In this document: positions 8,366 to 27,821 of the stretch, in pieces
Layout of the letters: every line of letters begins with the position of its first letter
How positions within the stretch are numbered: the first letter of the stretch is position 1
Virus record (IMG/VR): IMGVR_UViG_3300011189_000034
Span: 1 to 27,821 of that record
Direction: 5' to 3' (one strand)
Length of the DNA stretch: 27,821 nt
Source: a virus
Notes under the pieces: model-generated
Database searches by the model: none
What the model was told of the DNA's origin: nothing
What the model saw: only the letters and a program-made list of their open reading frames with translations
Program-made: the position numbers and the translations under genes

Positions 8366-8368
8366 GTG

Positions 8369-8376: not shown

Positions 8377-8387
8377 TGTGTTACTTT

Positions 8388-8786
8388 TTAAAATTGTTTT
8401 ATTTTATGTTGAGAGGAGTCGGAATTGACAGATTTGTTCTGCATTACGTTAGTTGTAGGCCCTTCCGTGTCATTTTCAATTGATATAGACGATTTTGCGG
8501 TTAAAGCGATCTTATCACCATCCCCCTCCAATATAATGACATATTGGCCTTTAGATTTCACAACTGTAACTTTATTCACTGTAAGAACCTTATTTTTGTG
8601 TGTTACTTCTTTGCCGTTCAATTTCATTTTCATGTCGTTCTCAAACTGTTTGATGGCAGATTTTTCATAGTTAGTAATTGAATCCTGTAACTCCTCTACT
8701 TCAGCCTTCAAAGAAAATTCAACTTGTGAGTTTAGGCTAGGAACCTCTTGCATCATGACTTCGGATATTAATTGTGATAGTTTCAT
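8388..8786 (-). CDS. Small head-region protein, unknown function
   Basis: This 132-residue protein starts MKLSQLISEV, containing an I-x-E site at residue 9, then a helical stretch (20-50). Residues about 55-100 alternate hydrophobic and charged residues like a small beta domain (VLTVNKVTVVKSKGQYVIIL), followed by a polar Asn/Ser tail. Its start overlaps the stop of the upstream gene by 4 bases, so translation is probably coupled. It lies just upstream of the protease, where T4 has small core genes 67 and 68. No homologue is recognised; a core or head role is inferred from position. Confidence 0.7.
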   Translation of the reverse strand: MKLSQLISEVMMQEVPSLNSQVEFSLKAEVEELQDSITNYEKSAIKQFENDMKMKLNGKEVTHKNKVLTVNKVTVVKSKGQYVIILEGDGDKIALTAKSSISIENDTEGPTTNVMQNKSVNSDSSQHKIKQF

Positions 8787-9286: not shown

Positions 9287-10154
9287 TGTCAGTTACTTTT
9301 TTCAACTCTTTGATAAGTTCATATGAGAGTAACAGTGAAGTAACTTGAGAGTCTTTTACGGTCGAACCTTTTGTGATATTAGATAATTGACGAATGGTTT
9401 CATCTAATTTAATCTGGACTACCTTGTCTTTAATATTAGATTTCAATTCATCCAACCTCAATTTTACCAAAGGTACTTCGGTCGCTATGTAAGATTTCAA
9501 AGAATTTGTATTACTTACATTGTTAATATACTCTCTAAGTAACAACTTCTGTTTTGTATCCAATACAGAATACTTTTTGTTAAACGAGTCCACAAGCATC
9601 TTATAAGTTAGTAGTCTATGATCTTCTTGTAGTTTATTGTATTGTTCAACGACACGATCTTTTTCAGCTTCGATTAGAACGTTCTTACCTCCCAATAAAT
9701 TTTCTATTATAACTTCACGGGACCGCAATGACTCACTTGGGTCATGACTTCTATCGGAAACATGGACTTCAAATAGTTTATACACAGATGCAAGTAACTT
9801 GTAATTTGATATGTTCCCTTTTAAGAAATCGTCAAGAGGATAATTTTCTTTGATAGTCTTTATCAAGTTATACTTCTGTTCATTTAATTTCTTTTCGGAT
9901 ATACGACCACGCGCTTTTACGATGGTTTCTACAATCCTATCTGCATTTACAGAGTCTTTTGCTTTCTCTTGGATAAGAAGTTGGTATAGTTTAAGTTCCT
10001 TGCCCAATTCGGTGGTGTCGCTAAAAAACTCTTTTAAGATTTTATTAGCGGTATACTCCGTGGAATCGTTTAATATATCCGCAGTAACCTGTCTTACCAG
10101 TAGTTCGAACAAGATTCCTGTGTTTTTAAATTTGCTGTGTTTAATTTTTATCAT
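9279..10154 (-). CDS. Conserved-looking helical head-region protein, unknown function
   Basis: This 291-residue protein is almost entirely helical and highly charged. The N-terminus (IKHSKFKNTGILFELLVRQ, residues 3-21) looks like a well-packed globular start. No catalytic motif, Cys pair, signal or membrane segment is visible. It lies directly downstream of the portal gene and overlaps the next gene by 8 bases, so it probably takes part in prohead assembly. The TATTTATA box at 10177-10184 is 22 bases upstream. Confidence 0.7.
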   Translation of the reverse strand: MIKIKHSKFKNTGILFELLVRQVTADILNDSTEYTANKILKEFFSDTTELGKELKLYQLLIQEKAKDSVNADRIVETIVKARGRISEKKLNEQKYNLIKTIKENYPLDDFLKGNISNYKLLASVYKLFEVHVSDRSHDPSESLRSREVIIENLLGGKNVLIEAEKDRVVEQYNKLQEDHRLLTYKMLVDSFNKKYSVLDTKQKLLLREYINNVSNTNSLKSYIATEVPLVKLRLDELKSNIKDKVVQIKLDETIRQLSNITKGSTVKDSQVTSLLLSYELIKELKKVTDNE

Positions 10155-10197: not shown

Positions 10198-12129
10198 TTA
10201 ATCCTCTAAAATATTACGTTCATCTAACAAAGAACGTTTATTCTTTGAATCTGTTTTGTATTTAGATTTCATCGATCTTAACTCTTCTGATATAGACAAT
10301 CCAATCTTTTTAGTGGCCGGAGTCATCCGTCTATTAAACCTCTCATCTTCATCTTGGTCATGCGGAGACGTTATATCTCGTGACCCATGACCTAAAGCAT
10401 CAGTATCCTTGCCATCATATCCTCTTCTTTTTGAATCGGACCTAACATTAGTTTCCAACCCATAGACATTGTTTAAATGGTTCTCAGAGTCCTCCTGTTC
10501 AGATTTATCACTGTCTCCACGATTGTCTTCGCCTGGCTTTGGGACTTCACCTTCAAACAAATCGCCTCCGAAGTCATCACCCCCGGTATCGCCGAAACCA
10601 CCGCCACCGCCTCCAAATCCACCGGAGAACTCATCGTTATCATCGTTTTCACTGTCGGTGTTCAGCTTCGTTACTTCCGCTGCTGGGTCAGTACCTTCAT
10701 TTTCGATAGTATCCAAACGATATTTAGCTTTATAGTCATCAACAAGTTCGGATTTAATTTTAGAGTAGTCTGCGGGGGATAAGTTGAATACATTCTCATA
10801 AATCCAATCAACGGAGAAGAACTTAGACTCAAACATATCTCTAGCAACACTCATCTTGTCACCCCAAAGAGCAATCTTTTCTTGTTCAAACAATGTGGAT
10901 GGGTTTGTTAAAGTAATTTCAAAGTTGACCATCGCAGCATCTGTAAACCCTTGGACATACAGGTGAAGAATAGCAATTTTTGTTAACTCAGACACGATAA
11001 TATGTTGAATGCGTTGGATCGTCTTTGCAAATCTAACGTCTTGTGCAGCTAATGAAGACTTTTCGCCAATACCTTCATCGTAACCAAGAAACGTCTTTGG
11101 AATTTTAAGAGCCGCCATCATCTTATTTTTGATGTATTCCAAATCGTCAATACCAGTCCACTCAAGACCGCTTAAGTTTTCAATCCGTGTTCCACTGTCA
11201 CCGCCACGGACAGGAAGATAAAAGTCTTCAATCATGTTCTGTAGATTGAATTTCAAGTTGTAATCACCTGTTTGTGGATCGATGTATGGAATCTTCTTCA
11301 TTTGAGATACCATTCTTTCCATGTGAGCGTCAACTTCTGAAGGCGGTATATTACCAATATCAACATAGAAAATTCTACGTTCTGGAGCTCTCATGATACG
11401 ATTTATTAACATCGCGTCCTCCATAAGTGATAATTGTTTCCATACTCTTCTTGCACCTTCTATCTGAGATTTTCCATATGGAAGAAAGTTAGAGTCGGAT
11501 AACAATCTAAAGTGACCCATTTCAAAATTTTCATATTCAGCACCACCAAATGAACCATCGTGTTGAAATTTCACATAATTCTTGTTCTCAGGGTCAATTC
11601 CTTCGATACGTGTAACTTCATATGCACTTAATGGTTCTACCATGAAGATGCCGTATTCAGGGGAAATATCCATCTTGAGGAAAAAATCCCCGTATTTACA
11701 CATGTTACGAGTCCAACTCCATAAGTTGAATTCGATGTTTAAAATTTCGTAAAATAGGTTATCAAGGATGGCTTTAATGTTATCATCCTCCGAACGGATA
11801 GTTAAAACCTCACCCATTTCATTCTTTGTAGTACACTCATCCGCATAGATATCGAGGGCACTCGACAGAATCGGGTCCATATCCATAACGTCATAATCTC
11901 GGAACAACTCTAATCTACTAGCTTGATATGCCATAGACATATCTCTATTATGAAGATTATAAGTCGAACTACGAAGTCGGTTGAACCGATCACGCATTGA
12001 ATTGCGGTCAGTTGCATACTGGATCTTGTTTGTGTCAACTACCTTCAATTTTTTCCCGCCGACATTGCGAATAACAACATCGGTTGAAAATAACTTCTTC
12101 AACCTTTTAAATACACTTATATCAGCCAT
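10198..12129 (-). CDS. Portal protein, T4 gp20-like, with extended acidic C-terminus
   Basis: This 643-residue protein forms the dodecameric DNA entry ring at the head vertex. Typical T4-type portal blocks are visible: YRDYDxMDxDP-like FRDYDVMDMDPILSSALD (76-93), DECTT, the LPYGKSQIEGARRVWKQL region (about 215-235) and APERRIFYVD. A conserved IENLSGLEWTGIDDLEYIK block is followed by an ALKIPKTFLGYDEG block and the long crown/stem helices. It is about 120 residues longer than T4 gp20. The excess is a Gly/Asp-rich tail from about residue 490, with a poly-Gly/Phe stretch near 500-525 and then polar charged sequence. The start overlaps the end of the GIY-YIG gene by 8 bases. A GGAG 7 bases before the ATG is a plausible ribosome site, lying inside the endonuclease coding sequence. 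Confidence 0.92.
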   Translation of the reverse strand: MADISVFKRLKKLFSTDVVIRNVGGKKLKVVDTNKIQYATDRNSMRDRFNRLRSSTYNLHNRDMSMAYQASRLELFRDYDVMDMDPILSSALDIYADECTTKNEMGEVLTIRSEDDNIKAILDNLFYEILNIEFNLWSWTRNMCKYGDFFLKMDISPEYGIFMVEPLSAYEVTRIEGIDPENKNYVKFQHDGSFGGAEYENFEMGHFRLLSDSNFLPYGKSQIEGARRVWKQLSLMEDAMLINRIMRAPERRIFYVDIGNIPPSEVDAHMERMVSQMKKIPYIDPQTGDYNLKFNLQNMIEDFYLPVRGGDSGTRIENLSGLEWTGIDDLEYIKNKMMAALKIPKTFLGYDEGIGEKSSLAAQDVRFAKTIQRIQHIIVSELTKIAILHLYVQGFTDAAMVNFEITLTNPSTLFEQEKIALWGDKMSVARDMFESKFFSVDWIYENVFNLSPADYSKIKSELVDDYKAKYRLDTIENEGTDPAAEVTKLNTDSENDDNDEFSGGFGGGGGGFGDTGGDDFGGDLFEGEVPKPGEDNRGDSDKSEQEDSENHLNNVYGLETNVRSDSKRRGYDGKDTDALGHGSRDITSPHDQDEDERFNRRMTPATKKIGLSISEELRSMKSKYKTDSKNKRSLLDERNILED

Positions 12130-12901
12130 TTACATACTCCCACCTTAAATTATATGCGTGTGGTCTGTGACCCGCGACACATCTAGAAACTACTTTATAT
12201 GAGTAGTCATTTACATCACTAGCTTCTCTAATTGAATTGTATACTGTAACTTCTCCGTTTTTATCTATACTTTTAACTTTAGACACCCGCGTCAAACCGT
12301 TCTTCAGACTCTTAAAATTTGGGGCGACTTGTATATTATTAGGAAAATCGTATTTATAACAAAATCCAAAACCCTTAACGTTTGTATATTTTTTATTTTT
12401 CTTACAACATTGAGTTATGTTAGACTGACATATACCGGAAAACAACTCCCTAGCAGCCTCACTAGCAGAACCCCACTCATGTATTAAATTTCCCGTTTTT
12501 ATATCATATTGACAAATGGGCTTTGTTACTTTCGGATTACCCATCATTGACTTTGAGATTCTTTTTTTTACGTGGTCGGGCATCGGCGATGATTCAAAGT
12601 TGGAATATACCTTATTATATCCAAAGTTCTCATTCAATGAATTGTTCAAGTCTATGTGGTAATCCTCCCTATCTTTGCAGTTATTCTTACCCGTAACATC
12701 GGATTCTACAACACAGAATTTAAAATTTTCTTTTCCGTGTTTGTTATACGCCCGTTGTAAATGATCGTTGTCGTGGACATTGGCCTTCAATTTCCACCGG
12801 TGAGTCTTCCACCTATTCTTATAACTTATAGAACTTCCAATGTAAACCTTTCGGTCAATCTCATTCTGTATTTTGTAAATCGTATATTTTCTATTTTCCA
12901 T
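12122..12901 (-). CDS. GIY-YIG homing endonuclease (free-standing)
   Basis: This 259-residue protein has an N-terminal GIY-YIG nuclease domain (1-100): TIY at 7-9, YIGSS at 20-24, conserved R30 and H34, and E79 in the REDYHID block. A NUMOD3-like KKRISKSMMGN (112-122) follows, then two NUMOD1/IENR-type DNA-binding modules (about 129-183 and 206-256). These enzymes cut intron- or gene-less alleles and spread themselves by recombination. It is inserted between the small gene at 13248 and the portal; its last codons overlap the portal start. No Shine-Dalgarno or TATTTATA box precedes its ATG. Confidence 0.9.
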   Translation of the reverse strand: MENRKYTIYKIQNEIDRKVYIGSSISYKNRWKTHRWKLKANVHDNDHLQRAYNKHGKENFKFCVVESDVTGKNNCKDREDYHIDLNNSLNENFGYNKVYSNFESSPMPDHVKKRISKSMMGNPKVTKPICQYDIKTGNLIHEWGSASEAARELFSGICQSNITQCCKKNKKYTNVKGFGFCYKYDFPNNIQVAPNFKSLKNGLTRVSKVKSIDKNGEVTVYNSIREASDVNDYSYKVVSRCVAGHRPHAYNLRWEYVNG

Positions 12902-13277: not shown

Positions 13278-14489
13278 CTACCGAATTAACCACCGAAGAT
13301 CCTGAACTTCTTTACTACTCACTTGTTGTTTATAAGGGTCATGTGTAGGAGATCCTGGTTGTCTAAAACCTGGCATGTTAGTGGATGAGTATATTCCATT
13401 CTCTTCAAACCCAGATTTCTTTATTCCCGCCAAAGCTTGTCTCTGTAGATCCATCCCCTTTTGACGTAACATTAATGCTGTATCTCGTACCCACAAACCA
13501 ATTCCCAACGCAATTGTTAAGTCATCATTATAACCGTCTGCTGCTTGGGCTTTACCGTTTTTCCAAATGAATGTCATTAGCTCATTTATGGTTCTCATCG
13601 ATTGTATGATAACACCCTTGTCCATGAAATATAAATCGATTTTAGATATCACCAGCGGTCTTGTTCGTGATGACATAGTAAACCCAGCAGTAGCTCTTTT
13701 TGATTTGGCGTTCCACTTGTTAGTATATTGATTTTCCATATCAACATATTTCAAATCATCATCCATATAAAATAGATTTTGATATCCTCTATCTAATATC
13801 TGTTGAATAACTGCCCAACCAATGTTAGAATTTTCAACAATTAATAAAGCGTTATTCCACTCTGTAGCCACTTGTACTAACAAATTACCAAAGTCCTTTG
13901 TTTCCAACTTACCTCTGTATTCAGCAACTTGTGTCATACTCTCAATTTCCAAAACGTGAAATGTAGAAAAGTCTTCTCCATCACCACGCGAAACGTCGGC
14001 ACTTACAACATATGTTTTTGAGTAGTCAGGAAACGCCCACGTCCAATAATTTGTGTCAAATCCTCTTTTTTCTACAGGTGCTTTAACGAAATTTTCTTCG
14101 TAATATTTCAAAGTCTCCAATGGAACAACTGAGTTACCAGACGAAACAAACGAACAATTATGAGATACTATTCCATCTACGTAAAAAATATTATTTGTTC
14201 CGACGTTGAGTATATCGTATAACACAATATCAGAGTCGAATTTTTCGATGTGTGTGATTGATATGACATCCCCCGATTCGGACCATAATTCATCTCCGAT
14301 TTTTAATACATCGGCATGTATAATTCCTTTACTACTCATAAACGGGTGAGTATCCGAACATTTTATAGTTTTGTCGGTGGATAAGGTTATCGCATAATAC
14401 GAATTCAGGGTCAACTTACGAATGCCCGAAAAAGGTTCATATCCAGACGGAGTATAGATTTCGTATCTAAAATTTTTCTTGAGTTTCAT
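13278..14489 (-). CDS. terL: Large terminase C-terminal part fused to split-intein C fragment (trans-splicing)
   Basis: This 403-residue ORF has two parts. Residues 1-111 are the C-terminal fragment of a split intein: IKCSDTHPF (42-50) is block B with the TxxH-type histidine, and YDILNV with GIVSHN (106-111) forms the C-terminal splice block. C112 is the +1 residue. Residues 112-403 are the terminase nuclease domain, beginning CSFVSSGNS. Acidic residues that fit an RNase H-like nuclease are D165 in SADVSRGD, E219 in LIVENSNIG and D322/D323 in GYNDDLT. The ORF starts 14 bases after the stop of the terminase N part and in a different frame, with no clear ribosome site. The spliced extein sequence ...QECD joined to CSFVSSG... 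matches a normal large terminase. Catalytic roles follow from T4 gp17 family knowledge. Confidence 0.93.
   Translation of the reverse strand: MKLKKNFRYEIYTPSGYEPFSGIRKLTLNSYYAITLSTDKTIKCSDTHPFMSSKGIIHADVLKIGDELWSESGDVISITHIEKFDSDIVLYDILNVGTNNIFYVDGIVSHNCSFVSSGNSVVPLETLKYYEENFVKAPVEKRGFDTNYWTWAFPDYSKTYVVSADVSRGDGEDFSTFHVLEIESMTQVAEYRGKLETKDFGNLLVQVATEWNNALLIVENSNIGWAVIQQILDRGYQNLFYMDDDLKYVDMENQYTNKWNAKSKRATAGFTMSSRTRPLVISKIDLYFMDKGVIIQSMRTINELMTFIWKNGKAQAADGYNDDLTIALGIGLWVRDTALMLRQKGMDLQRQALAGIKKSGFEENGIYSSTNMPGFRQPGSPTHDPYKQQVSSKEVQDLRWLIR
14157..14489 (-). other. Split intein, C fragment (111 residues)
   Basis: It covers codons 1-111 of the C-part ORF, from its ATG to the Asn before C112. 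Block B (SDTHPF) and block F/G (ending GIVSHN, +1 Cys) are intact. Length and sequence layout resemble the atypically split TerL inteins known from aquatic metagenomes, whose C fragment is about 104 residues. It contains no endonuclease domain. Confidence 0.92.
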
Positions 14490-14503
14490 TAGATTTTCAA
14501 TTT

Positions 14504-16702
14504 TTATAACACTTCGTATAGATTTTCCAAAGAAATATACATTTCTTCTTTGTTTACGATATCATACACTTTTACCTTAGAAACCCCCCACAGACAATCA
14601 CATTCTTGAGCAGCAGCTTGCTTGCCCAATAATACGTCCTGGTCATCTCTCCAAACTTGATCGTATTCAGGGTGTCCTGACCAGTGAAGTTTAATCGTAT
14701 TGAATGACTGAATTCCCTCTTCCGAATCCTTCCACATCCGATAGAACCAATTGCCCATACCATTTGGAGTCTGGTGACCGACAATGCCATTATAAACCAC
14801 AGAATGACACCACCTATCATCGAAATCATCTGGAAGGGAAAAGTCATATGTAAGCGACTTCGATTCTGTAATAGTTTTTATTTTTTCCCATACTATATTA
14901 TGTGAAATTATAGATTCCCAGTATTCAAAATCTTCGTCTGATAATAACTCACCATATAAATCAAACATCTGATTCACCAATTCCTGAGAAACATTCTCAG
15001 ATTTGCAGGGAGTCGATTTACTCACTATTGAATTTAAAAATATATTATGTCGTTTCTGAATCGAATGTGTAGTCTCACCTGAAAGCTCGAATAATGTCTT
15101 CACCAACTCAACGGAGTTTGGTATTATATTCAAATTACAATGGCGGGTTGATTGCTGTATACAGTCGTTGAAATATACACGTTTTCGATCCAAATTAAAT
15201 CCGATCAAATTATGAAATTTTATAGAATTCTTACCATATATTTCAATACGGTGAACGTCGTGATTAGTTTTTATATCACCCCCGTATGAATTCATCTGAT
15301 CCTTTGTGTAGTGATACCTACTCGTAAGAATCCCGAAATTGTTTAAAATCATCCGAGTCTTATCGATCAGAATTGAGGAACTTGATGTGTAATTAATCGA
15401 TTGAGAATCACATCCACCATCACCATCGAACATCCCCTTCAACACCCATCTAATTTTATCTCGGGAAAACGATAGTATTTTGGTTGTCAAATCTTTCCGA
15501 TTCGACTTATGGGATAAATCAAATCCTAAATATTCCAGAAATTCTAACAAATTTTTACATGACACGGAGTAATGCATGCCATCATCACTTCTCCACGGCA
15601 AACCAAGAGAATCGAATACCCACGAAATATCGTCTCCGCATGTAATTGTTAAACTTCCGCCGTTAGAATTAACATTTTTATATGTAGACCCCTCAGAAAT
15701 ATATAACCCGATTAGATAACACAATTCATTGGATAACGTATCGGGTTTAAACGGAATTCGTATCTTAGAAGAAACTGTAGGTTGAAAGTCTGAAATGTCA
15801 TCGTTATTACCCCATATATTTTGTCCATATTGGATACTAACATAGTCATCGGTAGTCAACTCATCCGATCTAAACCAACCAAATTCATTTAATTTTGATG
15901 AAAATGCCCACAACTTGTGATTGAAACTACACTCAAGATCCGTGGATTTAGTAGTTATCTTCTTCGTATCAACCAACCCATTATTATGAATTAGATTTCC
16001 AGTACGCAAACGATTTACCCCGAGTATATTATATGGAGTTACATTGTATCCACCTGACAATTCATAATTTACAAAATCTTTTACCTGGCGAATACCTTTA
16101 TCGGTAAACACGAACGTATCGTCGGTAACACATGATAATATAATAGCGTTACCACCACCGTGCATCATAGCGGATTGAACAGAAGTCCAAATATCACTGA
16201 TTTGGTCAATGAAAGCAGCTTCGTCTACTATAAGAAGTGACAAAGCTTCCGAACGACCGGCATCACCACTAGCAGAAACAGCTTTAATTTGAGACCCGTT
16301 TGAAAGTCTTAAACTCGTTCTGTTGTTTTCAATTTCACGTTCTTTCATCCATGATGGAAGGTTGTCATTAGCGAACCGAACTTTTGTTACCATGTTTTTA
16401 GCAACGTCTTGTTTAGTAGCAATAACAAGAACAGATTTGTCTTTATGAAACACCATCAACCACAAAGAATAAGCAGCGGTCAAAGTTGAAATGCCCATCT
16501 GTCGGCATTTTAGAATAATGTTTTTCGGGTTGTCTTTAAAATCTCGTATACACTCTTCTTGGAATGGGTATAACTTGAAAGGTATAGTACCTTTCTTAGG
16601 GTGCTGAATTTTTACATACTTCTTCATGAAGTATACTGGATCAGTAGCACACTTCAAATATTCTGCTTTAATAGCAGACTTTATCTCTGACGAACTAGCC
16701 AT
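14504..16702 (-). CDS. terL: Large terminase N-terminal part with an in-frame intein and a split-intein N fragment
   Basis: This 732-residue ORF contains, in order: the terminase ATPase extein (1-190), a full intein (191-644), a second extein (645-702) and a 30-residue split-intein N fragment (703-732). ATPase motifs are a Walker A-like KCRQMGIST (65-73, lacking the usual GK Lys), Walker B LLIVDEAAF (156-164) and motif III ILS joined across the intein to TPNGMG. The enzyme cuts and pumps DNA into the prohead through the portal. After both splicing events the protein would be about 540 residues (190+58+292), close to the family size (T4 gp17 is 610). It overlaps the upstream zinc-ribbon gene by 8 bases. 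A simple frameshift error is unlikely because both break points are exact intein junctions. Confidence 0.94.
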   Translation of the reverse strand: MASSSEIKSAIKAEYLKCATDPVYFMKKYVKIQHPKKGTIPFKLYPFQEECIRDFKDNPKNIILKCRQMGISTLTAAYSLWLMVFHKDKSVLVIATKQDVAKNMVTKVRFANDNLPSWMKEREIENNRTSLRLSNGSQIKAVSASGDAGRSEALSLLIVDEAAFIDQISDIWTSVQSAMMHGGGNAIILSCVTDDTFVFTDKGIRQVKDFVNYELSGGYNVTPYNILGVNRLRTGNLIHNNGLVDTKKITTKSTDLECSFNHKLWAFSSKLNEFGWFRSDELTTDDYVSIQYGQNIWGNNDDISDFQPTVSSKIRIPFKPDTLSNELCYLIGLYISEGSTYKNVNSNGGSLTITCGDDISWVFDSLGLPWRSDDGMHYSVSCKNLLEFLEYLGFDLSHKSNRKDLTTKILSFSRDKIRWVLKGMFDGDGGCDSQSINYTSSSSILIDKTRMILNNFGILTSRYHYTKDQMNSYGGDIKTNHDVHRIEIYGKNSIKFHNLIGFNLDRKRVYFNDCIQQSTRHCNLNIIPNSVELVKTLFELSGETTHSIQKRHNIFLNSIVSKSTPCKSENVSQELVNQMFDLYGELLSDEDFEYWESIISHNIVWEKIKTITESKSLTYDFSLPDDFDDRWCHSVVYNGIVGHQTPNGMGNWFYRMWKDSEEGIQSFNTIKLHWSGHPEYDQVWRDDQDVLLGKQAAAQECDCLWGVSKVKVYDIVNKEEMYISLENLYEVL
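14507..14596 (-). other. Split intein, N fragment (30 residues)
   Basis: It covers codons 703-732 of the N-part ORF, starting CLWGVSKVKVYD and ending LENLYEVL before the TAA. The first residue Cys and the short block-A pattern C-(V/L)-(Y/W)-G resemble the roughly 25-residue N fragment of the known AceL-TerL intein. The preceding extein residues are QECD. C701 is an alternative first residue but fits less well. Confidence 0.9.
14771..16132 (-). other. Full-length intein with LAGLIDADG endonuclease in terminase motif III
   Basis: This 454-residue intein runs from C191 to Q644, with T645 as the +1 residue. Block A is CVTDDTFVFTDKG, block B is CSFNHKLW (258-265) and the C-terminal blocks are LTYDFSLP and VVYNGIVGHQ. 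The two LAGLIDADG helices are LCYLIGLYISEGS (327-339) and RWVLKGMFDGDGG (418-430), with acidic residues E337 and D426/D428 at the active-site positions. The last residue is Gln instead of the usual Asn, a known minority form, and the nucleophile is Thr. Insertion is exactly between Ser and Thr-Pro of terminase motif III. The endonuclease looks intact. Confidence 0.92.
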
Positions 16703-18554: not shown

Positions 18555-21500
18555 TTAATTTTTAAATTCTAAATATCCTTGATAAATGGAAATAGTATTA
18601 CCTGCCTTAGCATTCATCCATTGAACTTTCACTGTAATATCTTCTGATGAAGTTGTATCAATAGTTTCTATTGAATTAGATGTATCTGTATCTGTATCAA
18701 TAATTGAACGACCATAGAAAGCAACACTTCCTGAAGCTCCAACACTTCGGACTGTCAATTCAGCATCCGTACTCCAATTAACACCTGTTACATTTCCAAT
18801 AGCAGGAGCAAGTGTTTCAACAAGTGTGCTTCCTATATAAACATTGATTGTAACATCATCAGAAGATGTTGCATTTGATAGAACTCCCCTAACTCTTGCC
18901 TTGACTACATTTCCTACTTTCAAAGTATTAGCATCAATAGTTCCTGTAAAGATAGTTGTTTCTGTTACTGTGTTGGATACAGTAGTTGTTGAAGTAATAA
19001 CATCTGATGTTCTATCTATTGCTCTTGGTGTGGCTACATTAGTTATTGTAAATCTTTCATTCACAAAGTTTATAGTTCCTGCCTCTGGTGTTGTAAGAGG
19101 AGTTGCTGTGTTTGTAAGTTTCAAAGGCGAAGTTCCTGCTGTAGCTGTACTTGCAGGTAGAGTAACACCATCAGAAAATAAGAATCTTGCACCTGAACCT
19201 ACTGCATTGAAAGTTGTAATACCTGTTGAACCTACCGTTGTAGAGAAATAATTAGATGTGTTATATCCTAGTCTTAATTGTTCTGTTGTTGATAGAGAGT
19301 GGAGTTTTGAAGATGGATTTGTAGTTCCAATACCGACGTTGCCCCCGAAATGAACATCTAAACTGTTAGAAGGAATAGTTATAGCAGGAGAACCAGTAGT
19401 TCCTTTTGTTGTGAATTGCATCTGTGTTCCAGCCGCCAAACCATTATCTTTTGTAGAAGCAAACATAAACTTAGAACTGTCTTGCAAAATAAATCCTCTA
19501 CTGACTGTTGCACCATATTCAGCAGCATTAACAATCTCTAGGAAAGTTGAAGACAAGGTTGCAGAATCGTTCCTAATACTAAATCCATAGTTAGTTGCAC
19601 TACCTCCTGAATTTATTTTTAACCCTGCTCTAGGGTAACTCGCATTATCACCCAATACACTTAATTCTCCACTTGTGTTAGTGGCGGATGCTAAAATACT
19701 TCCAACAACTTCTAATTCTGCGGCAGGTGCTGTAGTTCCTATACCGACATTCCCTCCCGCATAGTTAATACCACCTGTTGCAGAATTCCAAGGTTGTGTA
19801 GTTAAGTAAGAAGCGGTCACAGCGTTAATAGCATACTCAGCGTGGGATGCGCTGGCAACAGACCCATAGACAACAGACCCAGAAACAACATTGGTTGGAT
19901 CTGTTATCGAGAGGTGTTGTATGGAAGAATCCTCAAAATTCCATAAATTACCCGACGCAGTTACAGTTGCATTGGCCCCGAATGATACCGTGTTATTAAA
20001 ATAGACCTTTGGGATCGTCGAAACGGCAACATTACCATCATCAAAGTTGACCGTTTCAGTAAACGTTATATCTTTTTCGAAACTCGGATTCGGATCGCTT
20101 AAATTATCTACCCATTCAGGTTTTAATACAACCGAAGACCATTTGGGTGATATAATATCTGTAGGCAATGAGTTCTTGGGCGTTCTTAAAGTTCTTCCAT
20201 CCAGATCAAATGTATTAACAGAACGTAAACGGATTGGTACAGTTTTATTATCTATATCAAATAACTCAACATCAATTCTATATTTCTCATTAGCTACATT
20301 CAAAGGAAAACCTACCTTAACGGAGAAAATGTCAGGCGAAAAAGAGAAAGCTGATTTCGGTTGAATTGATATGTTGGAGATTGTAAATCCAGGAGCGTCC
20401 GGTCTAAGAACTAAAGTAGCATTAGAACCCGAATCCAACATAAAATCATTTTCATACTCAATGACTTCATTGGAGACTCCTGCTGGATATTCATACGACC
20501 CTATAAGAATTCCGTTCGTTCCAAAGTCTTCTGATACGTCATAACTAAAATTTGAACTTGTTAAATAGAAATTAATGCTAGCAGAGACTGATGTGGTTGG
20601 TCGGGTGTTTTGTAAATTACATTTAAGGGTATATTCAACACCTTCAAAAAACTTCATAAAATTACTATCCCACCCAGAACCGGATCGTTCCTGTAACTCA
20701 TTAACTGATGCCGAACTATACTCAGATGTGTTGTTTGGGAAGTTAGTATCGTCTTTAACGATTACGTATTCTCCGTTGTCAAACGATCCGCTTAAAAATA
20801 ATCCGTCAACCAATGCTGACGAACTTTGTATTAACGAAACATCATTACTACTTGGATACCAATATCTCTCCGCAATTGTTGCGCCGGAAATACGAGCGGC
20901 GTCGATGAAAAAACCAACATCTTCTAACTGTCTGTTCGGCGTTGCGTCGTCAATCAGTATTTCAGTGGGTTGTAACACACCGTTGCTTATCAATTCTTCG
21001 TCAGAGTTGCTGTTGAAACTCCGTCTGTAAATTCTAAATCTACGAATGTCTCCTGTGAAAGTACGAATGTTATTTACCGTTATTCTTGCTACCGATGTAA
21101 CGATTTGGTCGGATCCAGACGTCGATCCAGTTCCTTCTATTGTAGCCATTTCCACCGTTGGAAGTTTGTTGTATGAACAGCTTACATCAGCGCTATAAAT
21201 GTTTTTGACCGGTCTATCGGTCGGGGTATCTGGAAATGTAAACGGTCGACGAATCAACAATTCTCTATCACTTATAACTTTTATAATTTCAGCGCTGAAG
21301 GGTTTGTTTATAGAAGAAGAGTCAGGAGTAAGAACTATATTATTAAAATATAGAGTCTCGCCTTTAATTAACGAATTGAATGGGTCTCCCGATTTACGAT
21401 ATATCTTATATATTATATTTTTTCTAATCTTATCAAACGTCTTAAAGTTCTCACCACTTGCCGGTATGACAGCCACACCACATATGGTCGAATGTATCTC

Positions 21501-21995
21501 ATCGGTAGATGTCCCTTCAAAAATTGATAAGTTTGTTTGTAAAGGTTCGACAATGAGTTCTGGGGGTTTGTAAAATCGGATTTTAGAGACGTTCGATTTC
21601 TTGGAATCTATTGTTATTTTTCGTATCAACCTAACCGACTTGCCGGATGTGGTTGTCCCAACTAAAGTAATACTGCCAACACCGACAGGAACAAAAGACT
21701 GAACGTGGACGGATATTACCGTGGATACACCATCACGGAACTTCACACCGCCTCCAGGGCTTCTAGCAACTTCATAATATAACGGGTCTTTATTAACATC
21801 TAAGACCTCTATATGAATCTTCGTTCCCGGTTTTAATAGATTTGTACCATTAAATGCAACAGAGTTTTTTCCTCCTGTAAATTTTGGTTCAAACTCCACC
21901 ATATCGAAATACGAACCAAGTCCCGGTTCAGCTTCGATGTCAGGAGTTATTCTATCTAAATATAATCGGGTTCCTTTTCTAATGTGTCCAGACAT
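18555..21995 (-). CDS. Long beta-rich tail / fibre-like protein
   Basis: This 1146-residue protein is rich in Ser, Thr, Asn, Val and Gly and poor in Cys, typical of elongated phage tail or fibre proteins. The N-terminal 150 residues look globular with Ig-like strands (IHIEVLD, ITLVGTTTSGKSVRLI). The middle holds further beta domains. Near residues 745-760 and 880-900 are two copies of the fibre motif NVGIGTT(A/N)P, common in marine and Bacteroidetes-type phage fibres. The C-terminus (about 970-1146) is a Thr/Ser/Val beta domain likely to form the tip. No S74 chaperone domain is seen. It begins 3 bases after the upstream stop (21999), so the two are co-transcribed. Base composition differs in the C-terminal third. 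A receptor-binding role is inferred. Confidence 0.75.
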   Translation of the reverse strand: MSGHIRKGTRLYLDRITPDIEAEPGLGSYFDMVEFEPKFTGGKNSVAFNGTNLLKPGTKIHIEVLDVNKDPLYYEVARSPGGGVKFRDGVSTVISVHVQSFVPVGVGSITLVGTTTSGKSVRLIRKITIDSKKSNVSKIRFYKPPELIVEPLQTNLSIFEGTSTDEIHSTICGVAVIPASGENFKTFDKIRKNIIYKIYRKSGDPFNSLIKGETLYFNNIVLTPDSSSINKPFSAEIIKVISDRELLIRRPFTFPDTPTDRPVKNIYSADVSCSYNKLPTVEMATIEGTGSTSGSDQIVTSVARITVNNIRTFTGDIRRFRIYRRSFNSNSDEELISNGVLQPTEILIDDATPNRQLEDVGFFIDAARISGATIAERYWYPSSNDVSLIQSSSALVDGLFLSGSFDNGEYVIVKDDTNFPNNTSEYSSASVNELQERSGSGWDSNFMKFFEGVEYTLKCNLQNTRPTTSVSASINFYLTSSNFSYDVSEDFGTNGILIGSYEYPAGVSNEVIEYENDFMLDSGSNATLVLRPDAPGFTISNISIQPKSAFSFSPDIFSVKVGFPLNVANEKYRIDVELFDIDNKTVPIRLRSVNTFDLDGRTLRTPKNSLPTDIISPKWSSVVLKPEWVDNLSDPNPSFEKDITFTETVNFDDGNVAVSTIPKVYFNNTVSFGANATVTASGNLWNFEDSSIQHLSITDPTNVVSGSVVYGSVASASHAEYAINAVTASYLTTQPWNSATGGINYAGGNVGIGTTAPAAELEVVGSILASATNTSGELSVLGDNASYPRAGLKINSGGSATNYGFSIRNDSATLSSTFLEIVNAAEYGATVSRGFILQDSSKFMFASTKDNGLAAGTQMQFTTKGTTGSPAITIPSNSLDVHFGGNVGIGTTNPSSKLHSLSTTEQLRLGYNTSNYFSTTVGSTGITTFNAVGSGARFLFSDGVTLPASTATAGTSPLKLTNTATPLTTPEAGTINFVNERFTITNVATPRAIDRTSDVITSTTTVSNTVTETTIFTGTIDANTLKVGNVVKARVRGVLSNATSSDDVTINVYIGSTLVETLAPAIGNVTGVNWSTDAELTVRSVGASGSVAFYGRSIIDTDTDTSNSIETIDTTSSEDITVKVQWMNAKAGNTISIYQGYLEFKN
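19305..19350 (-). repeat. NVGIGTT fibre repeat, copy 2
   Basis: It encodes GGNVGIGTTNPSSKLHS. Together with the copy at 19715-19760 (GGNVGIGTTAPAAELEV) it marks two homologous shaft units. The DNA of the two copies shares GTAGTTCC-A-TACCGAC on the plus strand. Confidence 0.7.
19715..19760 (-). repeat. NVGIGTT fibre repeat, copy 1
   Basis: It encodes GGNVGIGTTAPAAELEV, the first of two such units in the fibre-like protein. It lies at the point where CpG frequency falls toward the C-terminal end of the gene, so it could be a recombination seam. Confidence 0.7.
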
Positions 21996-21998
21996 AAC

Positions 21999-24900
21999 TT
22001 AATTTAACTCAGATGGAACTTCGGTTGGGGTTTTTCGTCTTCCAATAATCTCAGAATACTTTTCTTTAATATCAGGCAACAAAGCTTTATACTTGAACTC
22101 ATCCGATTTTAGTTTGTTCGCTAGCTTCTCAAATGAATTTATATCATCCCATGTTACGTCGCCATCAAACAAAAACTCAGAAATTTTATCAGCGTTATCT
22201 TCAATCGCGTGATAAATCTTTTCTTTAGCTTTAAGCTTCTGACCCTTCTTTCCGAACTTGGGTTTTTCAATGCCCGTTTGGAACCCATGTTTAAAATTGA
22301 TAGTCCAACGATTCGTAATATCTGGATCGTCAGTCTCTTCTTTTATAACACCAAAGATAGCAATCAACAGTTCGTTTCTAAAAGATGCCTTGTATTTGCT
22401 ATCGTGTGGGGCTCCAGACAAAGCCTTCTTCATGAACTTCGGGTTTCCAAACATCAAATCAACTTGGATAATTGCTGGTTCATCTGAAATAACTTTACCT
22501 GTTTCATCTATCGCCGGCTGAGGATTTCCCTTTTGGTCAAATACAGGAGTTGATACGCTAATCTGACTTAGGCCGGGTTGTATATTAACATCTAATTCTG
22601 AGTTAGCAAAATATTCTTTCAACTTAGAAAACAATAATGCGTTTGTCTTTTTAATATCTTCGGCTGGTTCAACGCCTAACTTCTGTAAAACCTTTTTTGT
22701 GTCAATACCCACATCAACATCTCCTGAATATGGTTTTACGCTTCCTACCTTGATAAAGTCTACGTCTTCAAATCCAATGTTTGATAACAGGTTTTCAATA
22801 GTTGGTTTGAAATACTCGTTGTTTAACGCTGAGTTGTTGGATACAGCAGTGTGTTCGCCAACTTCTTTCAGAATAGAATCGGAATATCCTTTTATAGTAT
22901 TCATCTGATTGGTCACAGATTCACTGCCCTTTAGTTCTGCGAACTTATCTAAATATACATCGTATGTTGATTTAAAACTTGACATAAACTCATCATATGA
23001 CATTCCATCTGGCAAACCATCATGTTCTGCCAACGATTTCACCATACCCACCACCCCTTTGAGAAGCGTTCGAATTCTTACATCTTCAGATGGAATTCCC
23101 GAAATTTCCAGCTTTACATCTTCACCTGTGAAGAATTCCACGATGTCTTGAAACATCGTATCGGGATTGTCGCTTATAGTTTTCCACGTTCCTTTCTTAC
23201 GTGACCCTACAATTTCTCCAGTATCGTTTAATTTCACTCTGGCACCGTTCCATTGTAAGTTAACACCTAACAAATCTGAGATGGTGGAGTATATCTTACC
23301 AATAAATGCTCCCTTGAAACCTGGCTCAGCACGGCCTCTCGCCTGTGACCACCTAGCGAACTGAACAGTAGTATAAAAGAATTCTACTTCCGCCGTCTTG
23401 CCGTTTACTTTAAAGAATGAACGTATGCCGTTGGTGTTCTCAGAATCAACGTTCTTGTTTTGACCCGATTGAATAAACTGTTTTAATTCCTTTCGGTATG
23501 GTTGACTATCCTCAGATGGAACAGGGAAGTTGAAATCTAAATCTCCAGCAATATCTTGCTTTCCGACTGATACATTATGGCCTGATCCGTGTGGGGTTAT
23601 ATATTTTGATATGACCTCATCAGGAATAGGTTCCAGTTCGGTGTTGTTCTTCAAATGTTCGTTGAATTGAAGAACCATCTCTTTTACCATCTTCAATAAC
23701 TTTGTAACATCATCACGGTTTAGTGAGTCCGCCTGCCCAGTTGACTCATTTAACAAACGATTCTGGATAGCGTCAACAACGGCCTCTTCACCCTTAGACT
23801 TCAAAAGTCTTTCAATTTTCTCAATGGTATTCTTTCGAAGTTCAATATCACGATACGTGTCTTCACGTTTCTTTTCGTTAGTTACTTGATTTGGGTTTTG
23901 TAAAAAATCTTTTTCACTGCTGTCTACGACAGCTTTGAAATCAGCTAAGGCCATTTTCAACTGTGAAGGGTCTTTCTTCACCGTTCTCTTGAACTTAGCG
24001 TTAGCTGTGCTCATAGCGTCAATGAATTTCCAAAAATCTTTCTTCCGTTTTAAGAATAAGTCTTTGTCAACAATCTTAACCATGTCGCCTTTAGGTGTAT
24101 AAAAAATCAATCCCTCTGTTTCGTTACCGAATGCTTTATCGAAGTCAGCTTTCAATACATGGCCTTTTACTTTCTGACCAATCGTACTTACAAGTTCCTT
24201 GACGTGTTTTCTAGCTGCTACATCAACTCTCTTCCGACTTTTAGAATTTAAAATATTTCCCTTGTCTCTTATCAACGCTTCCAAGTCTATAATAAACTTC
24301 TGTGGAATCTCAATGTGGTCGGTATCAGGCCGTGGGTTAGCAAAGAACTTAATCTTAGTTGGTTTGCTAAGGGCAGAAGCGAGCTTGTCTGACAAGCCAT
24401 CCCCTTTGTCTATTTTTATCTTCTTGTCATCAATTTCAATGTTAAACATAACAATGATACCATCTTTGATTATCTTTGGATCGTATACAATAGCATTGTG
24501 ATTATAAAACGGGATGGATTCCGATTCGATGAGGAAGTTCTGTGTGTTTTTGAAACCGAGTTCCTTTAATATAGAAGAGAAATCGATTTGGCTTAAAACC
24601 TCATAGAACTCTCTAAAGTCGTCAAAGAAATACAAGTCAGGATAATCATCTTTAGATAATCGTTCGCCGCCTTGGTCTAATGTAAAGAACTTACCATCCT
24701 TCAACCCAAACTTATAAAAATGACCATCTACCTTTTCATTTACGACCAAACCTTTATCATGTGCGCCAAACAATTTTAAGAAATCCAATAACTGTTCCGC
24801 TGACAAATCTTCGATGTGTTTGACGAATCCAAATTGACCTCCTTCATTCAACTGTTCTGGCGAATCAACACCAAGAGCTTTTTGTAATATGGAATATACC

Positions 24901-25535
24901 TTTTGATTTACACCTGCGTTGAAAATAGCTTTGAACTTCTTCTCAACATCCATGTTAGGATTCTTCAAGACTTCTCTTGACTTGGTTCCACTCATTGTAC
25001 GTGGTAACTGAAACTTATATGGAAGTCCAGACCAAAATACGTTCTTGGGTACTGATGTAACCGTTTCTAAATTTGATGCACGTTGTTGTATGTCATCTTC
25101 TCCATATCCAACTACCAACGCAAAATCGTCAATGTCAAATCCAGACTTGGATATAATCTCAGCCATCCATTCAGACGGTTTTGGTTCTGGTTTGTTGTGT
25201 CGAGTGAAATACGGATTTGCTGGGCCTCTAGCTTCTATAATGTTTTGTTCGGGTATTCCAAACATAGTTTTCATTATGTATTTCTTCGCTGAAAACGGAA
25301 GCGGATCTTTAGGATCTAACTTCTTAGGGTTCGTTGTGACAATATAAGTATTTTCAACCCCAGCATTAGACGATTGGACTAGTTCTCTGTATGCCTTGTA
25401 GTGACCTCTGTGAAAAGGTTGAAATCTGCCTGGAAGTATAGCTATGACGTTATCAGTCTTTTTTGTACCCTCCGACAATCTATTTTTTATAGATTCTTTT
25501 AAAAGTTGTCTAATTTGTTTAACGCATTCTTCCAT
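21999..25535 (-). CDS. Four-module nucleotidyltransferase/ligase-like protein
   Basis: This 1178-residue protein has four modules. (1) Residues 29-215 form a cytidylyltransferase/NMN-adenylyltransferase-like domain with GRFQPFHRGH (HxGH at 42-45), MKTMFGIP and MSGTKSR (181-187, the SxTxxR-type block). (2) Residues 240-510 form an ATP-dependent ligase-like nucleotidyltransferase domain with EKVDG (nucleophile K268), GERLS (290-294), FLIE (334-337), EGLIF (474-478) and MVKIVDK (485-491). (3) Residues 605-870 are pol-beta-type, with GSG at 650-652, GDLDF (D665, D667) and a possible third carboxylate E716/E718. (4) Residues 880-1178 are a second pol-beta-type domain, with GS 931-932, GDVDV (D939, D941) and D1026 in QVDLMFG. 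Active-site residues look intact in all four. The leader MEECVKQIRQLLKES ends in LSE (20-22). Likely chemistry is nucleic-acid end repair, ligation or nucleotidylation; substrates are unknown. Confidence 0.82.
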   Translation of the reverse strand: MEECVKQIRQLLKESIKNRLSEGTKKTDNVIAILPGRFQPFHRGHYKAYRELVQSSNAGVENTYIVTTNPKKLDPKDPLPFSAKKYIMKTMFGIPEQNIIEARGPANPYFTRHNKPEPKPSEWMAEIISKSGFDIDDFALVVGYGEDDIQQRASNLETVTSVPKNVFWSGLPYKFQLPRTMSGTKSREVLKNPNMDVEKKFKAIFNAGVNQKVYSILQKALGVDSPEQLNEGGQFGFVKHIEDLSAEQLLDFLKLFGAHDKGLVVNEKVDGHFYKFGLKDGKFFTLDQGGERLSKDDYPDLYFFDDFREFYEVLSQIDFSSILKELGFKNTQNFLIESESIPFYNHNAIVYDPKIIKDGIIVMFNIEIDDKKIKIDKGDGLSDKLASALSKPTKIKFFANPRPDTDHIEIPQKFIIDLEALIRDKGNILNSKSRKRVDVAARKHVKELVSTIGQKVKGHVLKADFDKAFGNETEGLIFYTPKGDMVKIVDKDLFLKRKKDFWKFIDAMSTANAKFKRTVKKDPSQLKMALADFKAVVDSSEKDFLQNPNQVTNEKKREDTYRDIELRKNTIEKIERLLKSKGEEAVVDAIQNRLLNESTGQADSLNRDDVTKLLKMVKEMVLQFNEHLKNNTELEPIPDEVISKYITPHGSGHNVSVGKQDIAGDLDFNFPVPSEDSQPYRKELKQFIQSGQNKNVDSENTNGIRSFFKVNGKTAEVEFFYTTVQFARWSQARGRAEPGFKGAFIGKIYSTISDLLGVNLQWNGARVKLNDTGEIVGSRKKGTWKTISDNPDTMFQDIVEFFTGEDVKLEISGIPSEDVRIRTLLKGVVGMVKSLAEHDGLPDGMSYDEFMSSFKSTYDVYLDKFAELKGSESVTNQMNTIKGYSDSILKEVGEHTAVSNNSALNNEYFKPTIENLLSNIGFEDVDFIKVGSVKPYSGDVDVGIDTKKVLQKLGVEPAEDIKKTNALLFSKLKEYFANSELDVNIQPGLSQISVSTPVFDQKGNPQPAIDETGKVISDEPAIIQVDLMFGNPKFMKKALSGAPHDSKYKASFRNELLIAIFGVIKEETDDPDITNRWTINFKHGFQTGIEKPKFGKKGQKLKAKEKIYHAIEDNADKISEFLFDGDVTWDDINSFEKLANKLKSDEFKYKALLPDIKEKYSEIIGRRKTPTEVPSELN

Positions 25536-25552: not shown

Positions 25553-27821
25553 CTACGAATTATTGACATAACTAAACCCATTTTCTTTCTTGATTTCAAT
25601 CTGACCGTCAACTAAGTCTCGTAGTGTATCAATGTGGGATATCACCAGTATAAAGTCGAATTGATGTGATAAGAATGTAAACAGAGAACTTAATGAACTT
25701 CGAACTTCGTGATCCAAAGCGCCAAATCCTTCATCAATCGTCAAGAATGTTGTCTGTGGAATATTAGATATGTTTGTCAAAGCGATTCGAATTGCAAGGT
25801 TTGAAATAAAAGTTTCCATTCCACTTGTCAATTCCAACGGCCAACTCTTATCGTCATATACAATATTAGAGTTAATGTTAGTTCCATCCATCTCAATTGA
25901 GATGTTGAATTCAACAATCTGACTTAGAATCTCATTGACTTCCTTCTCAATAGCAGGAATAGACTTACAAATAATATCATACGGAACACCGTTTCGGTGG
26001 ATTGAATCGATGTAATACTCATATGCCCTAACGGAAGCTTCCAAGTCTTTAACCTCTTTAACCTTGGATTTTAGATTCTTCAATTCACTTCTCCACACCT
26101 CCAATTTGGAATTGGATTCCAATATCTTCTCATTAGCAAGTTTCAGTTTGTTTGATATCTCCTTGTTCTCACCGTCAATACCAACAATCTGTTGTCTAAT
26201 GTTCTCATTTTTAATGATGATGTCCTTGGAATTATGAAATCTTTGGATTCGTCTTTCAAGTCTCTCAACTTCATTCTCCAACCGAATGATATCCTTTTCT
26301 TTAGTTGACAAACGATTTATACATTTGTGCCACTCAGTATCAACCCGATTGTATTGTGTCTTCAGTTTTGCATATTCTGAATATTTTTCTGTGACATGGT
26401 TCTGTTCAGATACTTGCAACTTCAATCGATTCTTCCGCTCGACCTTATCATTTATAATAGGCTTCAACGCTTCCAACTCTTCCTTGGCGTTCAAAGCGTC
26501 TTGAATAAAGGCGTTTTTCATACAATACTCACAGTCTTCATCGTATTCGTGAGTCTCCAAGGTTTTTACTTTGTCTAACTTGTTTTTGATATCAACCTTG
26601 TATATCTCCAGTTCACTTTCCAATGATTTAAATTCCGACACCACCTTGTCGTATGACTCCTTTTTAGATTCTATATCATCGTTTTCAAACTGTTCGATGG
26701 AGTCTTGCATTTCAACAAGGGCGACTTTTATACTATCACATTCATCTTCAAGTTTAGATATATTGATAGAATCAATTTCAGATTTCTTCTTTTTAATATC
26801 GATTCCCAAAGAATCTATTTCGACAGGAACGTCTGAAAGGTTCACGATTTCAGAGTTTAACTTTACGATGGTTTCTATATTTGAATCTTTTAAATCGGAA
26901 AGTTCATCATGAACCTCCACCATCTTATTATACCTCGGTTTTGCAACAGCGATACAATCCTCAAGTTTGCCAATTTCAACATCAAAATTTACTTTATTCA
27001 GTTTCTTTAAAGCACCCAAAGTTTCTTTAGATTCGTTGAAAGCGATTTGATACAACTTATCGAATATAGTTATACCCAAAAATCTGGCAACCAAATCCTT
27101 TCGGTCGGTTTGACCTTTATCAGCGAAATTTGAATTGTTCCTCTGTAAACTAAGTGACGTCAACACAAAGTCTTCGTAACTTCCTATATAAGAACGGATT
27201 ATATCATTAGTGCTTCTTCGTGACTCATCGTTAAGACTTTCTACAACTCCGTTAACAACTCGTGAGAATTCAACATTGACCTTAACAACCCCCTTCTTAT
27301 CACGTTTAGCGGTTCTTAAAATCGTATATTCGGTTCCGTCGATATCAAACACGAAAGAACATTTGAACGACATTTTAGATTCGTTCATCACAGCAGACGC
27401 TTTAAACGTCCGCGAACACTTGTCGAAACAACAAAAACAGAACGCATCAAGTATAGACGACTTGCCCGAAGCGTTACTAGCGAAGATACCATTAATTCCT
27501 GACATGCCATCGAAGTTGATTACATTCGACTCTCCATATGAAAACATGTTATCGAATGTGAACATCTTGGGAGTCCAACGAAGATTCGAAACCTTATCGT
27601 CTGAACTTAATTTTTCGTTTGTGAGTTTGTTCAGATCAAACACTTTCTTCAATAACTTCTGAGATATTTTAGGGTGTTTGTGTTTTAAAAATTCGGATAT
27701 TAATTCGTTTTGGAAATCGCTTTCGTTTAACTTAGCTAACGGAACTTTAGACACACTTCCACGTTGGACCGTCTTAAAAGAGTCACCTCTTATATAAGAA
27801 GTCTCTTGGATGTCCGCAATA
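25553..27821 (-). CDS. Rad50/SbcC/T4 gp46-like ATPase, N-terminally cut by the window edge
   Basis: It is an SMC-type ATPase of the recombination nuclease complex, which resects DNA ends for phage replication and repair. Motifs: Walker A FASNASGKSS (at about 27455-27485), Q-loop region LSLQRNNS, long coiled coils, and a zinc hook CEYC near 26520-26545. The signature is LTSGMETFIS, Walker B is TTFLTIDEGFGALD and the H-loop is VISHID, all close to the C-terminus. The frame stays open upstream of the GTG at 27754 through the right edge (27 more in-frame residues up to Val-Ser, including YIRGDSF and VQRGS), so that GTG is not the true start. About 90 residues precede the usual ATPase start, which suggests an N-terminal extension or fusion to the partner nuclease (gp47/Mre11). 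Motif-based identification is strong; the fusion is inference. Confidence 0.9.
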   Translation of the reverse strand, partial: IADIQETSYIRGDSFKTVQRGSVSKVPLAKLNESDFQNELISEFLKHKHPKISQKLLKKVFDLNKLTNEKLSSDDKVSNLRWTPKMFTFDNMFSYGESNVINFDGMSGINGIFASNASGKSSILDAFCFCCFDKCSRTFKASAVMNESKMSFKCSFVFDIDGTEYTILRTAKRDKKGVVKVNVEFSRVVNGVVESLNDESRRSTNDIIRSYIGSYEDFVLTSLSLQRNNSNFADKGQTDRKDLVARFLGITIFDKLYQIAFNESKETLGALKKLNKVNFDVEIGKLEDCIAVAKPRYNKMVEVHDELSDLKDSNIETIVKLNSEIVNLSDVPVEIDSLGIDIKKKKSEIDSINISKLEDECDSIKVALVEMQDSIEQFENDDIESKKESYDKVVSEFKSLESELEIYKVDIKNKLDKVKTLETHEYDEDCEYCMKNAFIQDALNAKEELEALKPIINDKVERKNRLKLQVSEQNHVTEKYSEYAKLKTQYNRVDTEWHKCINRLSTKEKDIIRLENEVERLERRIQRFHNSKDIIIKNENIRQQIVGIDGENKEISNKLKLANEKILESNSKLEVWRSELKNLKSKVKEVKDLEASVRAYEYYIDSIHRNGVPYDIICKSIPAIEKEVNEILSQIVEFNISIEMDGTNINSNIVYDDKSWPLELTSGMETFISNLAIRIALTNISNIPQTTFLTIDEGFGALDHEVRSSLSSLFTFLSHQFDFILVISHIDTLRDLVDGQIEIKKENGFSYVNNS

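Follow-up and report, generated by a model that had tools for sequence, protein, structure and literature searches.

We analyzed a 27,821-base fragment of a T4-like phage (IMG/VR record IMGVR_UViG_3300011189_000034, taken whole and hereafter called the window), in which one late gene on the minus strand (21999-25535) reads as a single open reading frame (ORF) encoding a chain of 1178 residues. This chain is probably a nucleotidyltransferase polyprotein that is packaged in the virion and cut by a prohead protease encoded nearby. We infer its packaging and cutting with good support; its delivery into the next host, together with the activities and substrates of all its parts, is presumptive. As the cutter we propose a Peptidase_S77 prohead core protease of the T4 gp21 type (7742-8365, minus strand; Pfam PF03420, E = 1.8e-28; PHROG 207, E = 4e-50), acting on sites of the L-x-E (LxE) type in the 1178-residue chain.

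Four nucleotidyltransferase-type modules in one chain

The chain opens with a putative capsid-targeting peptide, read from its sequence (residues 1-22, 25470-25535; MEECVKQIRQLLKESIKNRLSE↓G, the arrow marking the predicted cut), which has an LxE end of the prohead-protease type and is followed by four modules, D1 to D4, all on the minus strand. D1 (residues 23-231, 24843-25469), which closes with LNE at 229-231, is an NMNAT-like HxGH nucleotidyltransferase. Its motifs G36RFQPFHRGH45 (H42 and H45) and M182SGTKSR (182-188) match the GRFQPxHxGH and [I/M]SGTxxR motifs of NMNAT. D1 matches PHROG cytidyltransferase families 395 and 3041 (E = 3e-8 and 1e-7), and a six-sequence profile run against the PDB retrieved NMNATs first (2qjt, E = 2.7e-10; 1f9a, 3.8e-8), with PPAT behind. 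D1 itself scores below the curated cut-offs (17.6 bits vs. 127 in NCBIfam, 14.1 vs. 21 in Pfam); its relatives do pass that of Pfam. Judged by sequence, D1 is like NMNAT and not like a cytidylyltransferase, and appears closest to NadM-type NMNATs. CoaD and cytidylyltransferases, both considered as nearest kin, ranked under NMNAT in the PDB profile search.

D2 (residues 232-597, 23745-24842; LNE end at 595-597) opens with GGQFGFVKHIED directly after the LNE of D1 and is probably a KxDG covalent nucleotidyltransferase of the ligase/capping type. The key residues are in place: E267-K268-V-D-G (267-271), an S-E pair near 339, E474-G-L-I-F, and M485-V-K487 within a GDMVKIVD stretch. Over EGG...EKxDG...YD, hhalign shows D2 to be a homologue of a large family of KxDG phage proteins (P = 1.2e-4), and D2 shares 38% identity over its whole length with a close relative in locus L174, where the motifs are kept (K268, EGLIF 474). 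Compared with the phage KxDG family, D2 has TLDQGG in place of ARNKG after motif I and one clear lysine (K487) in the motif V region. A tblastn search with D2 alone found nothing in phages, and searching PDB sequences with the profiles of D2, KxDG, D4 and a second ligase-like family gave no meaningful match. Membership of D2 in that second family was considered, as the layout is alike, but the profile of the family did not match D2, which was assigned to the KxDG family by hhalign. The second ligase-like family (L092:6693-7955 and homologues) carries an EKxDA motif, adjoins D4 genes and has no N-terminal leader; some of its members end in leader-like motifs, for example LLTYSQFLEKD.

The last two modules are of the Pol-beta type. 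D3 (residues 598-891, 22863-23744; LKE end at 889-891) displays G650-S651 and D665 and D667 (DLD), with Glu718 as its third acidic residue where both known homologues have Asp. These homologues come from L166 (an ORF with 29% identity) and, by jackhmmer, from L166 and L169. A Pol-beta fold is provisionally assigned to D3 through its homology to D4 alone (hhalign, P = 5e-7); a joint D3-D4 alignment placed the D3 homologues on D4 and was discarded for folding. D4 (residues 892-1178, 22002-22862), a member of the Pol-beta superfamily, holds the complete set of GS (G931-S932), DxD (D939 and D941, DVD) and third carboxylate (D1026, QVD), and an alignment of 25 diverse homologues keeps GS/GT, DxD and the third Asp. 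According to its structure model (pLDDT 88.8), D4 is a Pol-beta palm fold: its 19 best PDB matches are all family-X polymerases, headed by mu, lambda, beta and TdT (Foldseek probability 0.99, E = 1.4e-3; VIA-align aligned 178 residues with Z = 7.8 and a root-mean-square deviation of 4.7). Residues 1-246 of the model align to Pol lambda 334-575, with Z below 8 and a TMq of about 0.3.

The families of the D2, second ligase and D3/D4 types have no Pfam, PHROG or NCBIfam assignment, and one D4 member has a weak match to a PHROG of unknown function. For the Pol-beta modules, neither Pfam nor NCBIfam gave a match to RlaP or a known RNA-repair family, to which they may nevertheless be related. A scan of genome contigs with one peptide pattern found no cellular relative of D4.

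The initial annotation had read four nucleotidyltransferase-type modules in one chain, all with their key residues. The ORF, the motifs and the homologies confirm the modules. The residues hold in D1 and D4, probably in D2 and, in D3, with the caveat of Glu718 for the third Asp; across homologues they are kept in D4 (25 sequences) and D2 (L174), and D3 departs from its homologues at this one position. Structure prediction, suggested there as a check, bore out D4 and failed for D2. The label of cytidylyltransferase-like, given to D1, did not survive the ranking of NMNAT first in the PDB.

Prohead-protease-type sites at leaders and junctions

The capsid-targeting sequence of the T4 internal proteins is MKTYQEFIAEA, and many stand-alone homologues of the modules begin with T4-type capsid-targeting leaders, such as MKHIKLFEQFINEA. 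In locus L092, separate genes for the KxDG (MKKLFTYEQFLTE), HxGH (MKHVKLFEQFINEA) and D4 (MKYVKLYEDFIAE) proteins all have leaders of this type, and the N termini of the D3 homologues read MKKVLLFEQFITE↓GG and MALYKYNEFISLLE↓GG. The leader of the window chain, ending in RLSE↓G at 22, resembles those of D1-KxDG fusions such as MNKLVEQIIKELKLQIFNEED. Across D4-bearing loci, the leader pattern occurs in 12/14 KxDG, 15/24 HxGH, 2/3 D3 and 17/57 D4 proteins, compared with 96/511 other same-strand ORFs, a background that is itself elevated as these loci hold many leader-bearing genes, and with 5.6% of shuffled N termini.

T4 gp21 cleaves after L/I-x-E, and ten residues of IPIII are enough for packaging (PMC9026906). 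In the window chain, sites of this kind lie at the end of the leader and at all three internal boundaries, namely LSE↓G (22), LNE↓GG (231), LNE↓S (597) and LKE↓V (891), and the three internal ones all lie no more than two residues from where a boundary was expected, an outcome reached by about 1 of 10,000 shuffles. Among stand-alone KxDG proteins, 15/15 have an LxE-type site directly before the conserved [G/S]G that opens the domain (with L/I/V/M/F at P3; 12/15 with strict L/I), as do 42/53 fused ones (with strict L/I throughout) and 50/51 of the D4 proteins with such an opening (45 strict), six further D4 proteins being without it. Leaderless D4 proteins begin with Met at the very same point, as MSG in Lak phages and as MGG in Atu_ph07, L137 and Moby.

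Two larger fusions show the same arrangement. The 2078-residue protein of L174 (L174:1344-7580) consists of a second, degenerate HxGH domain and four repeats followed by D1, D2 and D4. It has [L/I]xE at its leader, before its repeats (LTE↓DP, LKE↓DP, INE↓DP and LTE↓SP), before D2 (LEE↓GV) and before D4 (LRE↓SG); at its inner D1 the corresponding residues are MDE↓A. Across seven chosen points in this protein, none of 5000 shuffles placed [L/I]xE at more than 3/7. The four tandem repeats, of about 240 residues each and each opened by [L/I]xE↓(D/S)P, are unassigned to any family here. In L188, IKE↓SG precedes KxDG and IIE↓GG precedes D4, with no clear site before D1. Subject to the choice of boundaries after inspection, the LxE pattern is unlikely to be due to chance.

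A different route to the same end is suggested by seven D1-KxDG fusions (L045, L049, L050, L059, L065, L070 and L082) in which Met replaces the P1 Glu, leaving an in-frame ATG inside the gene at the LxE position. A Shine-Dalgarno sequence (AAGGAG- or AAGGGG-like, about nine bases upstream) is present in 7/7 of these and in 1/54 of the others (51 Glu and three Cys variants; Fisher, P = 2e-8), the seven being related, so that the independent events are fewer than seven. To judge by sequence, this looks like an internal start that would yield the same GG N terminus as the LxE site, and it hints at selection for a KxDG product of its own. The junctions of the window gene have no such internal start.

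The junctions bear directly on a competing explanation, that of a single multidomain repair enzyme, packaged or not, whose four domains remain covalently joined and work one after another on the ends of RNA or DNA, comparable to T4 Pnkp/Rnl or to the Pol X and ligase of nonhomologous end joining. Repeated fusion in differing orders (121 D1-KxDG, 11 KxDG-D1, L188 and L174) suggests that physical linkage is useful, D4 resembles Pol X, and the stand-alone set of L166 includes a leader-bearing kinase of the PNK type. LxE sites or internal starts at these same junctions suggest, however, that the linkage is undone, and we regard the linked enzyme as unlikely. A repair machine acting on RNA or DNA ends had been proposed initially: end processing is still a reasonable reading, but because a prohead-protease-type LxE lies at every boundary, a polyprotein is more likely than one machine working as a whole.

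Several points weigh against the polyprotein, which is predicted from gene sequences. The window leader contains no F, Y or W and so does not fit the F/Y-rich T4 consensus, the leader score of D4 is weaker than that of the other modules, and the second ligase-like family scores 0/19. LxE or IxE occurs 16 times in the 1178-residue chain, mostly within domains; the boundaries were picked after inspection, and the related sequences are non-independent. Structural constraints could account for the retention of some LxE↓GG motifs, D4 of the window opens with VG rather than GG or SG, and, as far as is known, D1 and D2 need not be separated to be active. The D2 structure model, built on an alignment to the second ligase-like family, has a pLDDT of 41.5 and no confident fold.

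The same modules in other phages

A single-sequence search of viral contigs with the whole 1178-residue protein found no relatives, and one viral contig scan recovered at least 563 loci related to HxGH-KxDG proteins. Counted as distinct ORFs, the architectures are D1-KxDG (121), D4 alone (63), D1 alone (29), KxDG alone (22) and KxDG-D1 (11), together with single cases of KxDG-D1-D4 (L188) and D1-D2-D4 (L174); D1-D2-D3-D4 occurs in the window only. In LR756508, a 915-residue protein joins a ParB-like domain to D1 and KxDG, and the gene order is that of the window, beside a fibre-like gene and terminase. Microcystis phage Mel-JY01 has a D1-KxDG fusion with IAE↓GG, and in LR756500 KxDG and HxGH are neighbouring genes. 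L092 has separate KxDG, HxGH, D4 and second ligase-like genes in a row, and L166 brings D3, D4 and a PNK-like kinase together in one locus. This kinase (L166:4590-5111) is a P-loop protein (AAA_33, PHROG polynucleotide kinase) with a leader-like N terminus.

Two further phages carry overlapping sets. In Stenotrophomonas phage Moby, gp48-gp51 include a Pol-beta protein resembling D4 (hhalign, P = 6e-6), another with KMDG...IEGVII...KVQS and a third of the HxGH type (D1 hidden Markov model [HMM], 7e-18). These differ from the window in being separate, leaderless genes with an extra gp49 in between and no polyprotein. Moby gp50, tried as a member of the second ligase-like family, gave no hhalign alignment. 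In Prochlorococcus cyanophage P-HM1, an HxGH protein annotated as a "cytitidyltransferase" (D1 HMM, 9e-13) adjoins a DUF6267 protein with TKWDG and EGYVL..GDMIKLV; here the genes are separate and no Pol-beta partner was seen. The DUF6267 protein (L170:2766-3971, PF19782), with its KWDG and EG..GDMIKLV motifs, is a candidate covalent nucleotidyltransferase. Its formal homology to the KxDG family was rejected after hhalign gave no alignment, and the likeness is one of motifs compared by eye.

Because the modules recur as the separate genes of L092 and similar loci, as D3 plus D4 in L166 and in other fusions (L174 and L188), the functional unit appears to be the module and not the one chain. The combination, initially put forward as one not known before, is indeed unusual in its complete form, but its parts recur in other arrangements.

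Proposed packaging and mechanism

Packaging and delivery had no place in the initial annotation; they are supported by the leaders, by the late head-gene neighbourhood and by published virion proteomics. Mass spectrometry of purified virions has found NMNAT-like proteins in cyanophages S-SCSM1 and S-CREM2 (the latter annotated as a cytidylyltransferase), and one has been reported for S-CBWM1 (PMC9602691, PMC10665884). Two proteins related to these virion NMNATs, from S-H38 and P-TIM68, match the D1 profile (7e-14 and 7e-17, respectively) and begin with the T4-type leaders MKSYKEFLSEAR and MKSFTSFFTEAR.

In the mechanism that we propose, a precursor of four nucleotidyltransferases would be made late, and its N-terminal leader would direct it into the prohead core. 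The S77 prohead protease would then cut after LxE at residues 22, 231, 597 and 891, releasing the leader, the NMNAT-like enzyme, the KxDG ligase-like enzyme and two Pol-beta-type enzymes, which would enter the next host alongside the DNA as infection begins. There, they would most likely act together on nucleic-acid ends, either RNA (for example, cleaved tRNA) or DNA, the Pol-beta domains adding nucleotides, the KxDG domain activating or sealing ends, and the NMNAT-like domain making NAD+ or another nucleotide conjugate.

By analogy, a module set that may add nucleotides and activate or seal ends, sometimes with a PNK-like kinase, best fits nucleic-acid end repair. Jumbo phages use ligases with Pol-beta partners in tRNA repair (PMC7824862), and repair of DNA ends is equally open because D4 resembles Pol X.

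D1, being NMNAT-like, points also to NAD+. The modules might form an injected kit for NAD+ and nucleotide metabolism, directed against NAD-depleting or nucleotide-signalling defences, with D1 rebuilding NAD+ and the others modifying or removing signalling nucleotides or toxins. The closeness of D1 to NadM-type enzymes, the NMNAT-like proteins in cyanophage virions and the frequent packaging of NAD-related proteins by myoviruses (PMC9503650) are in keeping with this. It is nonetheless a rather doubtful reading, as we saw no NadV-like partner in the window or in the neighbourhoods that we inspected, and KxDG and Pol-beta have no obvious role in NAD salvage.

Alternatively, the Pol-beta and KxDG modules could be effectors that attach nucleotides to host proteins or RNAs, in the manner of polyvalent effectors or T4 Alt, and injected polyvalent proteins do include Pol-beta nucleotidyltransferases as protein-modifying domains (PMC5512222). 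The palm-and-thumb likeness to template-using Pol X and the ligase-like and PNK-like partner genes fit nucleic-acid substrates better, however, and we find host modification distinctly improbable. Separately, L093:2384-2911 encodes a small leader-bearing protein with an ADP-ribosyltransferase-like start (VGTVYHYTT), perhaps an Alt-like internal protein.

Genomic setting

The neighbours of the 1178-residue gene are late genes. An SbcC-like subunit (25553-27754) and a fibre-like protein (18555-21995) flank it, and the window also holds terminase pieces and a portal-like protein; apart from the SbcC-like subunit, these names come from sequence reading and position. The S77 protease is flanked by a head-core cluster (4515-10154, minus strand) of small proteins (4515-4940, 4959-5951, 8388-8786 and 8783-9286), with an inserted ORF (5988-7691) in between. 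These small proteins have, on reading their sequences, short helical leaders with many LxE or IxE; searches of Pfam and PHROG gave no strong family match, and their presumed functions follow from adjacency to the protease.

The gene for the large terminase subunit (13278-16702, minus strand) is apparently split, with two intein-like insertions: the first ORF closes with a short tail resembling an intein N part, and the following one opens with an intein C-like part ending in VSHNC, as in split inteins. At 988-2667, 2712-4490, 5988-7691 and 12122-12901, and at L007:15701-17644, repeated large ORFs with similar zinc-finger and repeat text, together with a GIY-YIG-like ORF, resemble homing endonucleases that have entered the head gene region.

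Discussion

The window protein, as we propose it, works like the T4 internal proteins and the polyvalent proteins, and is set apart by four nucleotide-transfer enzymes with protease-type junctions. With the T4 internal head proteins and Alt it shares a short N-terminal leader ending in L/I-x-E and an S77 protease gene in the head cluster of the genome, and Alt is likewise an enzyme delivered with the DNA. The T4 proteins are, however, small single proteins or one enzyme, whereas the window joins four enzymes with an LxE at each junction, and its packaging is presumptive. Polyvalent proteins (Iyer et al. 2017, PMC5512222) are also large and multidomain, combine disparate enzymes, lie in a late virion gene neighbourhood (for the window protein, with portal, protease and terminase) and are predicted to be injected. 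In contrast to these, the window domains are all nucleotide-transferring and are predicted to be cut apart by the prohead protease, and Pfam, PHROG and NCBIfam gave no match to a metallopeptidase or ArdC-N hub domain in the window protein. The RlaP RNA-repair systems of jumbo phages (PMC7824862) similarly place a Pol-beta nucleotidyltransferase beside ligases, sometimes with PNK nearby; the window set differs in its NMNAT-like partner, its capsid leaders and its lack of a Pfam match to RlaP or RNA ligase.

More broadly, and more tentatively, the capsids of T4-like phages may carry a conserved nucleotidyltransferase set (NMNAT-like, KxDG and one or two Pol-beta enzymes, partly outside Pfam), with different lineages reaching the same mature N termini by an LxE-cut polyprotein, by separate genes or by an internal start. 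Such a set would be an undescribed nucleotide-transfer ejection kit for nucleic-acid repair or counter-defence.

If this is true, a bacterial virus processes an enzyme polyprotein with its capsid-maturation protease, as RNA viruses process theirs, and sends the products on into the next host cell. Several large phage families would likewise gain a working hypothesis, namely the "cytitidyltransferase" proteins, the KxDG families that lack an assignment and a Pol-beta family outside Pfam, and the number of related HxGH-KxDG loci indicates that the system is common in nature. Finally, it would offer a clue to the role of injected internal proteins during the opening minutes of infection.

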